Assembly (NCBI RefSeq): GCF_003234085.1
Contig: NZ_QKSD01000009.1
Location: 152,116-216,115, forward strand
DNA length: 64,000 nt
Source of the DNA: Curtobacterium sp. MCPF17_052
Lineage (GTDB): Bacteria > Actinomycetota > Actinomycetes > Actinomycetales > Microbacteriaceae
Reading direction: 5' to 3'
In this document: positions 28,127 through 58,852 of the stretch, one piece after another
Position numbering within the stretch: position 1 is the stretch's first letter
How the letters are laid out: the number at the start of each line of letters is the position of its first letter
Notes under the pieces: generated by a model
Told to the model about the DNA's origin: nothing
The model's input: only the letters and a program-made list of their open reading frames with translations
Database searches by the model: none
Translations under genes and position numbers: made by a program

Positions 28127-28170
28127 CGGACGGGAGGCCCGACACCAGCTGGTGTCGGGCCTCCCGTCCG
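28127..28170. terminator. 44-bp perfect palindrome between menC and ccsB
   Basis: The two 22-nt arms (CGGACGGGAGGCCCGACACC and its complement, plus AG/CT at the centre) are perfectly complementary. Convergent genes on both sides make it a bidirectional terminator. Confidence 0.8.
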
Positions 28171-42685: not shown

Positions 42686-43153
42686 TCAGCGTCGCTCGGC
42701 GAAGAACGCGTCGAGCACCGCGGCGCACTCGTCCTCGAGCACGCCCGCGACCACCTCGGCCCGGTGCGGCAGCCGACGGTCCCGCGCGATGTCGTAGACG
42801 CTGCCGCTCGCGCCGGCCTTCGGGTCCCAGGCGCCGAAGACGATCCGAGGCACCCGCGCCGCGAGGGCCGCGCCCGCGCACATCGGGCACGGCTCGAGCG
42901 TCACGACGAGGGTGTGCCCGGCCAGGTGCCAGTCACCGGTGACCGCCGCCGCGGCGCGGAGCGCGAGGACCTCGGCGTGCGCGGTCGGGTCCTGGCGGGC
43001 CTCCCGCTCGTTCCGTCCGACCGCGACCACCGCACCGTCGGCGTCGAGGACGACGGCACCGACCGGGACGTCGTCGGTCGTGAGACAGGCGCGGGCCTCG
43101 TCCAGTGCACGTTCCATCGCGGGGACGAAGGGCCGGTGCGCCGGGTGCTCCAC
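42686..43153 (-). CDS. tadA: tRNA adenosine(34) deaminase TadA, 155 aa
   Basis: Zinc deaminase making inosine at the wobble position of tRNA-Arg(ACG). The zinc and proton-transfer motif HAEVLAL is near residue 66 and [14 protein letters not shown] near residue 95; [12 protein letters not shown] is the family entry. GTG 43153 ([20 protein letters not shown]) is preferred over ATG 43117 because GGAG lies 5 nt before it. Divergent from upp. Confidence 0.9.
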
Positions 43154-43219: not shown

Positions 43220-43855
43220 ATGCGAGTCCACGTCGCCGACCACCCGCTCATCACCCACAAGCTCTCGGTGCTCCGCGACCGGACCACTCCCTCCCCCACC
43301 TTCCGGGCCCTGACGGAGGAGCTCGTCACGCTCCTGGCGTACGAGGCCACGCGCAACGTCCGGGTGACGGCCACGCCGATCACCACCCCGGTCGCGCAGA
43401 CGATGGGCGTCGCGATCGCGAAGCCGCGTCCGCTCGTCGTCCCGATCCTCCGCGCCGGCCTCGGCATGCTCGAGGGCATGGTCAAGCTCGTCCCCACGGC
43501 CGAGGTCGGGTTCCTCGGCATGGCCCGGAACGAGGTCACCTTCGAGCCGCAGACGTACGCCGAGCGCCTGCCCGACGACCTGTCGAACCGGCAGTGCTTC
43601 GTGCTCGACCCGATGCTCGCGACCGGTGGGACACTCGCCGCGGCGATCGACTTCCTGTTCGAACGCGGTGCCGTCGACGTGACCTGCGTCTGCATCCTCG
43701 GCGCGCCCGAGGGCCTCGCCGCGCTCGAGAAGGCCGTCGGCGACCGTGACGTGACCATCGTCCTGGGTGCGCTCGACGAGCGTCTCGACGAGAACGGCTA
43801 CATCGTGCCCGGTCTCGGCGACGCCGGCGACCGCCTCTACGGCCTGGCCGAGTAG
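43220..43855 (+). CDS. upp: Uracil phosphoribosyltransferase, 211 aa
   Basis: Pyrimidine salvage: uracil plus PRPP gives UMP. The start [20 protein letters not shown], the [14 protein letters not shown] box and the PRPP-binding [18 protein letters not shown] near residue 130, with [17 protein letters not shown] at the C-terminus, identify it at the usual length. Confidence 0.97.
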
Positions 43856-43870
43856 CCACCGCACTCCATT

Positions 43871-43911
43871 GACGGGAGGCCCCCCACCGGACCGGTGGGG
43901 GGCCTCCCGTC
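43871..43911 (+). terminator. Terminator after upp
   Basis: A 20-bp stem GACGGGAGGCCCCCCACCGG with its complement around a single A (practically a 3-5 nt loop) lies 16 bp past the stop. Confidence 0.8.
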
Positions 43912-43940
43912 CGTCGTCTCCGCGACTGTCCGCAATCGTC

Positions 43941-43987
43941 ACCGTCCGCGCGGACGGTTGACACGGCGTTGGTATACCGCCGATACT
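43941..43987 (+). promoter_or_regulatory. Operator-like palindrome overlapping a consensus promoter
   Basis: ACCGTCCGCGCGGACGGT (43941-43958) is an 18-bp perfect palindrome whose last base begins a consensus -35, TTGACA (43958-43963). After 18 nt containing GGTATACC (43971-43978) comes GATACT (43982-43987) as the -10. Six nt later is the ATG of the 33-codon ORF. The match is far stronger than at other genes here. Confidence 0.75.
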
Positions 43988-43993
43988 CATGCC

Positions 43994-44095
43994 ATGACTG
44001 CAACCGTGTCCACTCGCGCCCTCCACGAGGCCTCGGGGACCGTCGGCATCATGATGCCGACCACGGCGGTCATGCGTTGTCGAATGTGTGCCTGA
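43994..44095 (+). CDS. Leaderless short ORF, 33 aa, candidate regulatory leader peptide
   Basis: I do not recognise a family. The ORF reads MTATVSTRALHEASGTVGIM then MPTTAVMRCRMCA, ending with two cysteines and two arginines in the last six codons. It is short, has no Shine-Dalgarno, and starts 6 nt after a consensus -10, so it is probably translated from a leaderless mRNA. Codons 17-23 lie in a 20-bp perfect palindrome (44042-44061). 273 bp separate it from the winged-helix regulator on the same strand. Short leaderless Cys-ended ORFs work as attenuators in mycobacteria; application to this ORF is inference. Confidence 0.55.
   Translation: MTATVSTRALHEASGTVGIMMPTTAVMRCRMCA
44042..44061 (+). 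promoter_or_regulatory. 20-bp perfect palindrome inside the leader ORF
   Basis: GTCGGCATCATGATGCCGAC can form a hairpin in RNA or bind a protein dimer in DNA. It spans the Met-Met codons of the leader ORF. Confidence 0.6.
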
Positions 44096-44368
44096 TCGGT
44101 ACCCGTTCCAGCCGGATCCCCCGCGACACCACCCCCGTCGCACGCGCGTGATCCCCCGGTGACGACCCCGTCGACGACGCGCACCACCGTCACGAGGTCG
44201 GACCCCGCTCCCCCGGAACCGCCCCGGTCCTCACGGACCGCAGGGCCACTCGGTGAACGCTGCTGCAGCGACCGCCGTCGTGGCCACGGCTGATCCGGGC
44301 CGACGCATTCGACACCGGCCGAAGCACCACCACACCGCTCGGCCCCTGCACCACCCGGAGACCGCACC

Positions 44369-45166
44369 ATGTCGCTCACCATCGCCCAGCCCCGCACCAC
44401 CCCCGATCTCCACAGCGCCGCGTCGACCACGACCGACCTCGGCAGCGTCACCCCGATCCGCGGCCGTCGCCCCGCGGCCCTGCCGGCCCAGCCTGCCCGT
44501 CCGGTCACCGACCGCGCCACCGTCCCGACCAGCCCGATCGTCGCCCCGGCCCGCAACCGTGCGCTGCCGGAGGGCACGGAGGCCCGCGGGTTCGCCCTCT
44601 ACGTCGGACTCGACGAGGCCGCGGCCGCTGCCGCCGGCACGACCCTGGCCGCCGTCGTCGAGCAGCTGAAGGCGTTGACCGCCCAGCTCGTCCCGACCGC
44701 CGAGACGTACGCGGCGGTCGCCGTCGCTGCCGAGGGGTCCGGCGGGCGTGACGTCGACGTGGTCCGCCTGGCCCTGCAGGACCGTTCGGCGGTCGCGGCG
44801 CGCAAACAGACCGAGAAGCCCGAGCCGGAGGAGACCGGGGTCGTCATCGACATCTCCCGGAAGCGCGTCGTCCTCGACGGCGAAGCGGCTCCGCTCACCT
44901 TCAAGGAGTTCGAGCTGCTGCAGTTCCTGGTCCTCCGTGAGGGCCGCACGGTGGACCGCTCGGCCATCATCGAGGGCCTGTGGTCCGACGGCGAGGACGA
45001 GGCCCCGAACGAGCGCACCATCGACGTGCACGTCCGGCGCCTCCGGTCGAAGCTCGGCGCCTTCGAGGAGATCGTCCGCACGGTCCGCGGTGTCGGGTAC
45101 CGGTTCGACCGCCACGCCGACGTCTCGGTCCGCTACGCCTCCACCCCCTCCCCCGACCTCTTCTGA
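44369..45166 (+). CDS. Orphan winged-helix (OmpR/PhoB-type) regulator without receiver domain, 265 aa
   Basis: The C-terminal third (about 157-247) is a PhoB-like DNA-binding domain: PLTFKEFELLQFLVLREGRT, NERTIDVHVRRLRSKLG (recognition helix) and VRTVRGVGYRF. There is no phosphoacceptor receiver domain. Residues 1-65 are Pro/Ala/Thr-rich; 72-140 form a compact alpha/beta-like segment (ARGFALYVGLDEAAAAAAG, then an Ala/Val-rich helix and VDVVRLALQDR) that I cannot assign. ATG 44369 has GGAG 8 nt upstream. Its 273-bp leader starts after the short ORF. DNA-binding is family knowledge; its signal and targets are unknown. Confidence 0.8.
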   Translation: MSLTIAQPRTTPDLHSAASTTTDLGSVTPIRGRRPAALPAQPARPVTDRATVPTSPIVAPARNRALPEGTEARGFALYVGLDEAAAAAAGTTLAAVVEQLKALTAQLVPTAETYAAVAVAAEGSGGRDVDVVRLALQDRSAVAARKQTEKPEPEETGVVIDISRKRVVLDGEAAPLTFKEFELLQFLVLREGRTVDRSAIIEGLWSDGEDEAPNERTIDVHVRRLRSKLGAFEEIVRTVRGVGYRFDRHADVSVRYASTPSPDLF

Positions 45167-45242
45167 ACCTGCTCTCGTGCGCCGATCGGACAACTCGCAG
45201 GATTCGTCGGCGAGGCGCCCTTCCCCGGCGTTACCGCACCGT

Positions 45243-45248
45243 TATACA
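45243..45248 (+). promoter_or_regulatory. -10-like TATACA before a possible small RNA
   Basis: TATACA occurs in CCGTTATACAGTCGG, 77 bp after the regulator stop. No -35 is convincing. The following 75 nt have distinctly lower GC than the flanks. Confidence 0.35.
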
Positions 45249-45254
45249 GTCGGT

Positions 45255-45360
45255 CGTGCAGACGGTGTTTGCTGTGGCACCGGCTGTGGAATGTGATTGC
45301 AGGAATCTCTTGGTGCAAGGGAGCGGGCCGGTCGTCCACCAGGACGGCCGGCCCGCGTTC
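45255..45360 (+). ncRNA. Candidate small RNA or attenuated leader between regulator and marR
   Basis: A promoter-like hexamer and a strong terminator hairpin (45323-45356) bound about 105 nt of low-GC sequence with no start codon and ribosome site combination of note. It could instead be an attenuated leader of the MarR operon, whose own TAGGGT lies near 45379. Confidence 0.3.
45323..45356 (+). terminator. Strong hairpin upstream of marR
   Basis: A 15-bp stem GCGGGCCGGTCGTCC / GGACGGCCGGCCCGC with one G-T pair and loop ACCA is followed by GTTCTGTGT. Confidence 0.7.
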
Positions 45361-45413
45361 TGTGTCCGACCCCGTCGGTAGGGTGGTGGTCCACCAGACG
45401 GAGGGAAAGACCC

Positions 45414-49467: not shown

Positions 49468-49511
49468 ATGACGGGAGGCCCGGTACCAGCTGGTACCGGG
49501 CCTCCCGTCAT
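49468..49511. terminator. 44-bp perfect palindrome between TetR gene and sodA
   Basis: Arms of 22 nt (ATGACGGGAGGCCCGGTACC with AG/CT at the centre) pair perfectly; an outer GGCGACCAC/GTGGTCGCC can add 9 bp. Convergent genes on either side support a bidirectional terminator. Confidence 0.8.
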
Positions 49512-58529: not shown

Positions 58530-58616
58530 TGGTGTCCTCTCAACGGGACTCCGGGTGCGCGCGACGGTCGTCGGCGGACGGCAGGCGGGATCGCGGAACG
58601 ACCATCACCTTCCGTC

Positions 58617-58748
58617 AGCGCTTCCTCCCGTCCGGACTCTCACCGTCGGTCCTGGGATTGCACCAGGTCAACCCCGCACCGGGCGGACCCGGCGCGGCGC
58701 TCGTGGACTGTCACCACCGGTTCGGACTTGCACCGACCCCGGAGCGCT
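58617..58748 (-). promoter_or_regulatory. FMN riboswitch (RFN element)
   Basis: On the minus strand the element contains the conserved GGGGTCGGTGCAAGTCCGAA and CCGGTGGTGACAGTCC boxes, a central GGTGCAATCCCAGGACCGAC arm and closing GGTGAGAGTCCGGACGGGAGG. AGCGCT pairs close the helix at 58743-58748 and 58617-58622. FMN binding is expected to reduce ribE-ribB-ribH expression; about 87 nt of expression platform separate it from ribE. Confidence 0.93.
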
Positions 58749-58852
58749 TGCGTGTCACCGACGATACCCCAGCACCCCGACCGTCGTGGGCGGATGGTCC
58801 GCCGGGCGTCACGCGGCGTCTCGGGGGTGCACCGGGCCTCCCGTCCGGCGGC

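Follow-up and report, generated by a model that had tools for sequence, protein, structure and literature searches.

A conserved leader ORF with a leaderless-type promoter upstream of an orphan winged-helix regulator gene in Microbacteriaceae

How is the gene of an orphan winged-helix regulator of Curtobacterium sp. MCPF17_052 controlled, and does the short cysteine-containing ORF that lies 273 nt upstream of it take part? The locus belongs to a stretch of 64,000 nucleotides (the window, to which all coordinates refer). A preliminary description of it proposed an operator palindrome, a consensus promoter, a leaderless leader ORF containing a second palindrome, and control of the regulator by attenuation. 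Every element that it named lies where it had been placed; the upstream palindrome overlaps the −35 element by one base. The features are:

42686-43153, − strand: deaminase gene, which we take to be tadA-like, beside its Pfam match; two genes upstream
43220-43855: upp, upstream of the leader
43941-43958, no strand: 18-bp perfect palindrome ACCGTCCGCGCGGACGGT, operator-like, read from the sequence
43958-43963, + strand: −35 element TTGACA (sequence and promoter scan)
43982-43987, + strand: −10 element GATACT (sequence and promoter scan)
43994-44095, + strand: leader ORF of 33 codons plus TGA, MTATVSTRALHEASGTVGIMMPTTAVMRCRMCA, a conserved peptide ending in M-R-C-R-M-C-A
44042-44061, + strand: leader segment A, a 20-bp perfect palindrome (codons V-G-I-M-M-P plus two bases)
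44078-44089, + strand: leader core B, TGTCGAATGTGT, with the invariant CGA-AUG at 44081-44086
44096-44368, + strand: leader-regulator gap of 273 nt (C 47%, G 27%), holding no promoter-like site
44303-44314, + strand: anti-core ACGCATTCGACA, a 12-nt complement of core B with one G-U
44356-44361, + strand: probable Shine-Dalgarno sequence CGGAGA of the regulator, from the sequence
44369-45166, + strand: orphan winged-helix regulator (OmpR/PhoB-type DNA-binding domain), from PF00486 and the alignment

Promoter of the leader and the upstream palindrome

The −35 and −10 elements are separated by a spacer of 18 nt. As the −10 element ends 6 nt 5′ of the ATG at 43994, the transcript probably begins on the leader start codon; from this promoter spacing we predict that transcription starts at the A of the ATG or its neighbour, which would make the leader leaderless. 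The leader promoter is the sole match to TTGACA-N16-18-[TCG]A[TC]ANT on both strands of the 64-kb window and the only promoter-like site that the promoter scan found in 43800-45400 (mean of 0.0 in shuffles); this strict TTGACA-type pattern was also the only check on the statement that the promoters of most other genes are weaker. A transcription start inside the gap had been named as an argument against control by the leader, and the consensus scan found no promoter there. The same layout recurs in relatives: 105 of the 132 thinned loci have TTGAC 28-46 nt 5′ of the leader start (94 of them at 36-37 nt) vs. 4 of 527 control windows; a −10-like hexamer ends 5-9 nt before the leader start in 88 of the 132; and a Shine-Dalgarno-like tetramer precedes the start in three.

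Perfect palindromes of at least 18 bp number four in the window, two of them being 44-bp terminator-like repeats, vs. a mean of 1.4 and a maximum of 3 in 20 shuffles. The last base of the 18-bp palindrome is the first T of TTGACA, and hence the two elements share one base. It is kept in all 31 Curtobacterium loci (mismatches among its nine pairs: none in 6 loci, one in 22, two in 3); in the other Microbacteriaceae genera examined it was not seen by eye, and it therefore probably lies outside the common module. Its 16-bp core has three exact sites in the strain's own genome, and by eye no −35 element follows the two besides this one. The palindrome of the proposed operator holds within the genus and finds no counterpart by eye in the other genera examined, and we regard the palindrome as a genus-specific operator candidate in Curtobacterium. 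At other Microbacteriaceae loci, L032, L033 and L035 among them, inverted repeats TGCAAG...CTTGCA or TGCAAGATAGTTGC overlap the −10 element of the leader promoter and stand in place of the Curtobacterium palindrome.

Conservation of the leader and its regulator

The regulator had been described as lacking a receiver domain, which the domain searches bear out: PF00486 (Trans_reg_C; residues 172-246, 75.7 bits) is its one Pfam match, no receiver domain was matched in Pfam, and the NCBIfam matches, among the 25 listed, all lie within the C-terminal half only. It has the C-terminal winged-helix DNA-binding domain in common with OmpR/PhoB response regulators (PF00486) and, unlike them, a separate N-terminal region that is conserved in the alignment and holds no receiver; the mean pLDDT of the predicted structure, 57, was too low for a fold search. 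The regulator occurs in 59 of 60 genomes of the genus (in G009 the best match is a paralogue at 42%) and in 147 of 150 genomes of the family (E up to 1e-30). A 149-genome sample of the order yielded it in 17 genomes of three other families, two of these 17 matching in the DNA-binding domain only; the family f6 (10 genomes) is Arthrobacter-like by its protein names. On its 3′ side the regulator is followed by a MarR-type gene and a photolyase gene. Between the regulator and the MarR-type gene we noted a conserved, unannotated small-RNA-like block at 45230-45360 (+ strand), which runs CGTTACC...CGTTATA, then GTTTGCTGTGGCA...GGAATGTGATTGCAGGA...CTCTTGGTGCAAGGGAG, then a strong terminator hairpin; 38 of the 58 oriented loci, several other genera among them, have its central motif no more than 1.4 kb downstream, and the block matches no Rfam family at its gathering score.

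Of the 146 Microbacteriaceae genomes whose upstream DNA was read, 135 have a leader with the same 3′ core, and the expectation that the ORF would be conserved upstream of the same regulator in this family is strongly upheld. These 146, drawn from the 147 family genomes with the regulator, were read as 30, 100 and 16 loci, in which the R-M-core leader was present in 30, 97 and 8, respectively; the eight genomes of the last group that have none are all 1.1-1.8 Mb in size. Of the three loci without it among the 100, L115 keeps the first half of the leader peptide and has lost the core, and at L163 and L167 upp directly precedes the regulator. All 31 Curtobacterium loci read have the leader, at a length of 32-39 codons, and a leader with the CGA-AUG core is also present in 7 of the 10 f6 genomes; six of these leaders end in CCRM or CRRM plus H-A or Q-A, and one in GRRMPR. 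On this strong comparative evidence, the ORF is a real and widely conserved regulatory leader. Rfam gave no match for it at gathering score, sub-threshold ones only; NCBIfam gave none; and literature searches, whose coverage extends to few subscription papers, returned no title on it.

The usual leader peptide reads M-T-x5-L-T-S-x-E-A-x-G-x-A-G-M-M-M-P-x3-V-M-C-C-R-M-C-[A/R], and Curtobacterium has M-R-C-R-M-C-A at its end. Under a scan that itself demanded one Cys near the end, the last nine residues of the 132 thinned leaders contain three Cys codons in 90, two in 29, one in 8 and four to six in 5; some small-genome lineages end the leader in a run of Cys, e.g. CRMCCCC. The Cys pair takes the form CCRM in 101 of 162 relatives; in the window leader the Cys codons are codons 29 and 32 (C-R-M-C) and are not adjacent. 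The scan accepted any Arg codon at the core Arg position, and this codon is CGA in 162 of 162 leaders; in the regulator genes, CGA accounts for 51 of 882 Arg codons. CGAATG is invariant in the 132 thinned loci, and the further leaders found have the same form. Given that the wobble base of the Cys codons drifts in the same leaders (TGT 341, TGC 131), CGA is not merely inherited unchanged. This poses a codon puzzle: across some 80 genera in the sample, one rare Arg codon never changes while the adjacent Cys codons vary in their wobble base.

Three further observations concern short ORFs of this kind. The leader of L156 (genome G157), near base 985 in the oriented sequence, has only eight codons, VILRRMCA, with the core intact; this is perhaps the smallest unit retained by selection. 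L189 and L190 (family f7) have the same regulator, and the short Cys-containing ORF upstream of it is another one (QRMPMLCVRDLTC), which may be a leader of unrelated type. Of eight core copies read away from the regulator, one alone is leader-like by its frame, ending in RCCRMCW, and there the opposite strand carries a long open frame.

Complementarity between the leader and the regulator start region

The strongest signs of a function at the RNA level lie in the base complementarity between the leader and the start region of the regulator, which takes two forms. In the window, core B pairs over 12 bases with the anti-core, which is exact in 30 of 31 Curtobacterium loci at about 35-66 nt before the regulator (start at −66 in the window). 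This pairing dominates the predicted ensemble of the window RNA, with 11.4 of the 12 anti-core bases paired, and the anti-core ends 55 nt 5′ of the start codon, off the Shine-Dalgarno sequence. For five of the seven f6 leaders, the regulator start is preceded by GCATTCGA at 43-48 nt; a run of at least 7, such as ATTCGACA, falls between the Shine-Dalgarno sequence and the ATG in 19 of 132 loci. In other genera it is the Met codons of segment A (GATGATG) that complement CATCATC, beside the Shine-Dalgarno sequence or over the start codon. CATCATC occurs at −36 to +3 in 48 of 132 loci vs. 4 of 128 in the neighbouring control window, and it accompanies a leader GATGATG in 47 of the 48 (Fisher p 7e-7, uncorrected for kinship); 43 of the 50 segment-A matches of at least 8 lie within 40 nt of the regulator start. 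Segment A of the window leader itself has no CATCATC-type partner, its best run being 7 nt.

The complementarity is specific to the antiparallel sense: among the 132 thinned loci, runs of at least 8 were found for segment A as the reverse complement in 45, vs. 4 direct, 2 complement and 0 reverse, and for core B in 23, vs. 0 in each of the other three senses. Core complementarity of at least 8 was present in 25 of 132 loci vs. 3.2 in shuffled gaps; shuffle counts throughout overstate significance, since related sequences are not independent. Across the 132 loci the two anti-elements largely exclude one another (both in 3, anti-A only in 45, anti-B only in 28, neither in 56). In their predicted ensembles, 72 of 131 non-Curtobacterium loci have more than three core bases paired with the 90 nt that immediately precede the regulator; for a 30-nt N-terminal segment of the leader the number is 19. 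Own leaders outnumber leaders swapped between species in runs of at least 8, both for segment A (45 vs. a mean of 33.9 and a maximum of 44; 131 loci) and for core B (29 vs. 18.0 and 25); the covariation is modest, as most of the complementarity survives the swaps.

Other calculations set bounds on this picture. A family-wide duplex of the core was rejected, the mean z of the duplex score over the 132 loci being only −0.16, and we therefore claim core pairing only where a run was found. The global fold of the window leader is not unusual (z of −0.50). When the core was masked as by a stalled ribosome, the computed opening cost of the regulator ribosome site was not lowered; it rose slightly, by a mean of 0.44 kcal/mol in 31 Curtobacterium loci and 0.47 in 131 others (from 4.7 to 5.2 in the window). 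The attenuation that had been proposed for this locus is supported by the complementarity of leader and regulator start; the computed opening of the ribosome site counts against it. The 20-bp palindrome that had been pointed out inside the ORF fares less well: as a conserved RNA hairpin it was rejected, with 249 of 344 cells paired vs. 264 of 344 in a control slid by one base. This comparison used the 86 of 132 leaders with MMM, in which one pair alone stood out from column shuffles; stems of at least 7 in 131 leaders numbered 32 vs. 24.3 in codon shuffles. The palindrome shows no clear covariation and is not clearly conserved as a hairpin, and its Met codons are the very segment that complements CATCATC at the regulator ribosome site in other genera.

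Proposed mechanism, related systems and alternatives

We propose, at a probability of roughly 60%, that the leader peptide gene controls the orphan regulator by ribosome-dependent attenuation, a model that takes conservation, leaderless-type layout, codon invariance and strand-specific complementarity from the comparisons above. Transcription would begin at the leader's own ATG, as the promoter spacing suggests, so that a ribosome starts at the 5′ end of the RNA. With plentiful Cys-tRNA, the ribosome would read the Cys and CGA codons, terminate and depart; the freed core TGTCGAATG would then pair with ATTCGACA or GCATTCGA near the regulator start or, alternatively, the freed Met-codon segment would pair with CATCATC beside the Shine-Dalgarno sequence; and either pairing would reduce expression of the regulator. 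With scarce Cys-tRNA or slow reading of CGA, the ribosome would park on the core and block pairing, and the regulator would be made. For the direction of this control, for Cys as the signal, and for translation rather than Rho-dependent termination as the controlled step, the model is what we infer.

Leaderless polycysteine attenuator ORFs of mycobacteria were reportedly described by Canestrari et al. in 2020. The accessible parts of the literature describe contiguous Cys codons and attenuation via elongation speed in mycobacteria (PMC9031893), Cys-rich leaderless ORFs (PMC4633059, PMC9094748), and translation attenuation in which pairing of the uORF with downstream RNA occludes the Shine-Dalgarno sequence and stalling unmasks it, a scheme stated to govern M. 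smegmatis cysteine genes (PMC13236596). By these partial accounts, the window leader is like the mycobacterial attenuators in being a short, leaderless actinobacterial ORF that carries 3′-terminal Cys codons and precedes the gene that it would control, and we propose for it the same control through the reading speed of Cys codons and ORF/downstream pairing. It is unlike those described there in that it precedes a transcription factor rather than a known cysteine-metabolism gene; its relatives have Cys codons mostly as a pair before the invariant CGA-AUG; and it has two alternative pairing segments and occurs in other bacterial families. In the window, the sequence predicts a leaderless start, contiguous Cys codons are absent, and the downstream gene encodes a DNA-binding regulator, which could still act on sulfur genes. 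As its Cys codons are non-contiguous and its target is a transcription factor, we do not file the leader as a polycysteine attenuator; it is best read as probably working like one. A comparison of sulfur genes in 27 genomes revealed no visible link with leader presence (cysE in 25 of 27, PAPS reductase in 8 of 27); the strain's own genome is 77% complete.

The intrinsic terminator that follows the leader ORF in trp/ilv-type attenuation was not found between the leader and the regulator on the + strand of the window. The whiB7 leader, which responds to ribosome-targeting drugs, likewise has a transcription terminator, whereas none was found here. The whiB7 leader of mycobacteria, mentioned in PMC13236596, is also a leader ORF that controls a transcription-factor gene. 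Another short leader ORF, with a tandem pair of conserved Cys codons, is the Cys attenuator uORFC-8-2 of Rhodobacterales (PMC8632094); it ends in an intrinsic terminator and precedes cysS, in contrast to the window gap, in which no terminator was found.

It is possible, if unlikely, that the gap serves as a Rho-loading site and that termination before the regulator depends on where the leader ribosome stands or on the leader pairing. Consistent with this, C exceeds G in 161 of the 162 gaps (in 139 the C/G ratio is 1.5 or higher), the window gap has no intrinsic terminator-like site between leader and regulator on the + strand, and the Curtobacterium pairing encloses a C-rich stretch rather than the Shine-Dalgarno sequence. 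However, the regulator gene itself also has a C excess over its first 150 coding nt (mean C 0.467, G 0.264); and many anti-elements lie at the ribosome site, a position that fits translation better.

We consider it doubtful that the leader is a nascent-peptide arrest sequence or a sensor of ribosome stress (antibiotic-type, like whiB7 or Arg-Leu-Arg leaders) rather than of an amino acid. The C-terminal [C/R]RM is strongly conserved as peptide, the core is able to stand alone in the eight-codon leader, and RCR in the window resembles the arrest motif R-x-R; yet the invariance reaches the codon level (CGA in 162 of 162), and the commonest form outside Curtobacterium is CCRM, not RxR. A Bacillales leader with Arg-Leu-Arg, described in the accessible part of PMC8632094, would also fit this reading.

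Neither Cys sensing nor pairing fully explains the invariance of CGA, because CGA also persists in leaders whose core lacks a visible partner. CGA is read by the tRNA-Arg with inosine at position 34, made by TadA, and the second gene upstream encodes a tadA-like deaminase. As a long shot, the single invariant CGA codon might be the sensor, in place of the Cys codons or beside them, and the leader would then report the state of tRNA-Arg (its inosine modification or charging) to a family-wide transcription factor.

It is very improbable that the complementary segments are inverted DNA operator half-sites for the regulator or another protein with an incidental ORF. In favour of this, the regulator is a DNA-binding protein and, in Curtobacterium, the promoter has an operator-like palindrome beside it. 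Against it, the peptide of the ORF is conserved, and two unrelated pairs, GATGATG/CATCATC and TGTCGAATG/ATTCGACA, substitute for one another in different lineages, as suits pairing rather than a single binding motif.

Ribosome-dependent attenuation, our preferred reading, would extend leaderless attenuation past mycobacteria and to a regulator gene. A translated leader is here tied to an uncharacterised transcription factor that is nearly universal in Microbacteriaceae and has relatives in an Arthrobacter-like family, and the link gives a concrete handle on what the regulator senses.

Several other elements were seen in the window. Two perfect 44-bp palindromes, at 28127-28170 and 49468-49511, are built around GGGAGGCCC...GGGCCTCCC and are probably bidirectional terminators; a similar palindrome, odd-centred, lies past upp at about 43873-43912. 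An FMN riboswitch lies at 58616-58749 on the − strand (78.9 bits).
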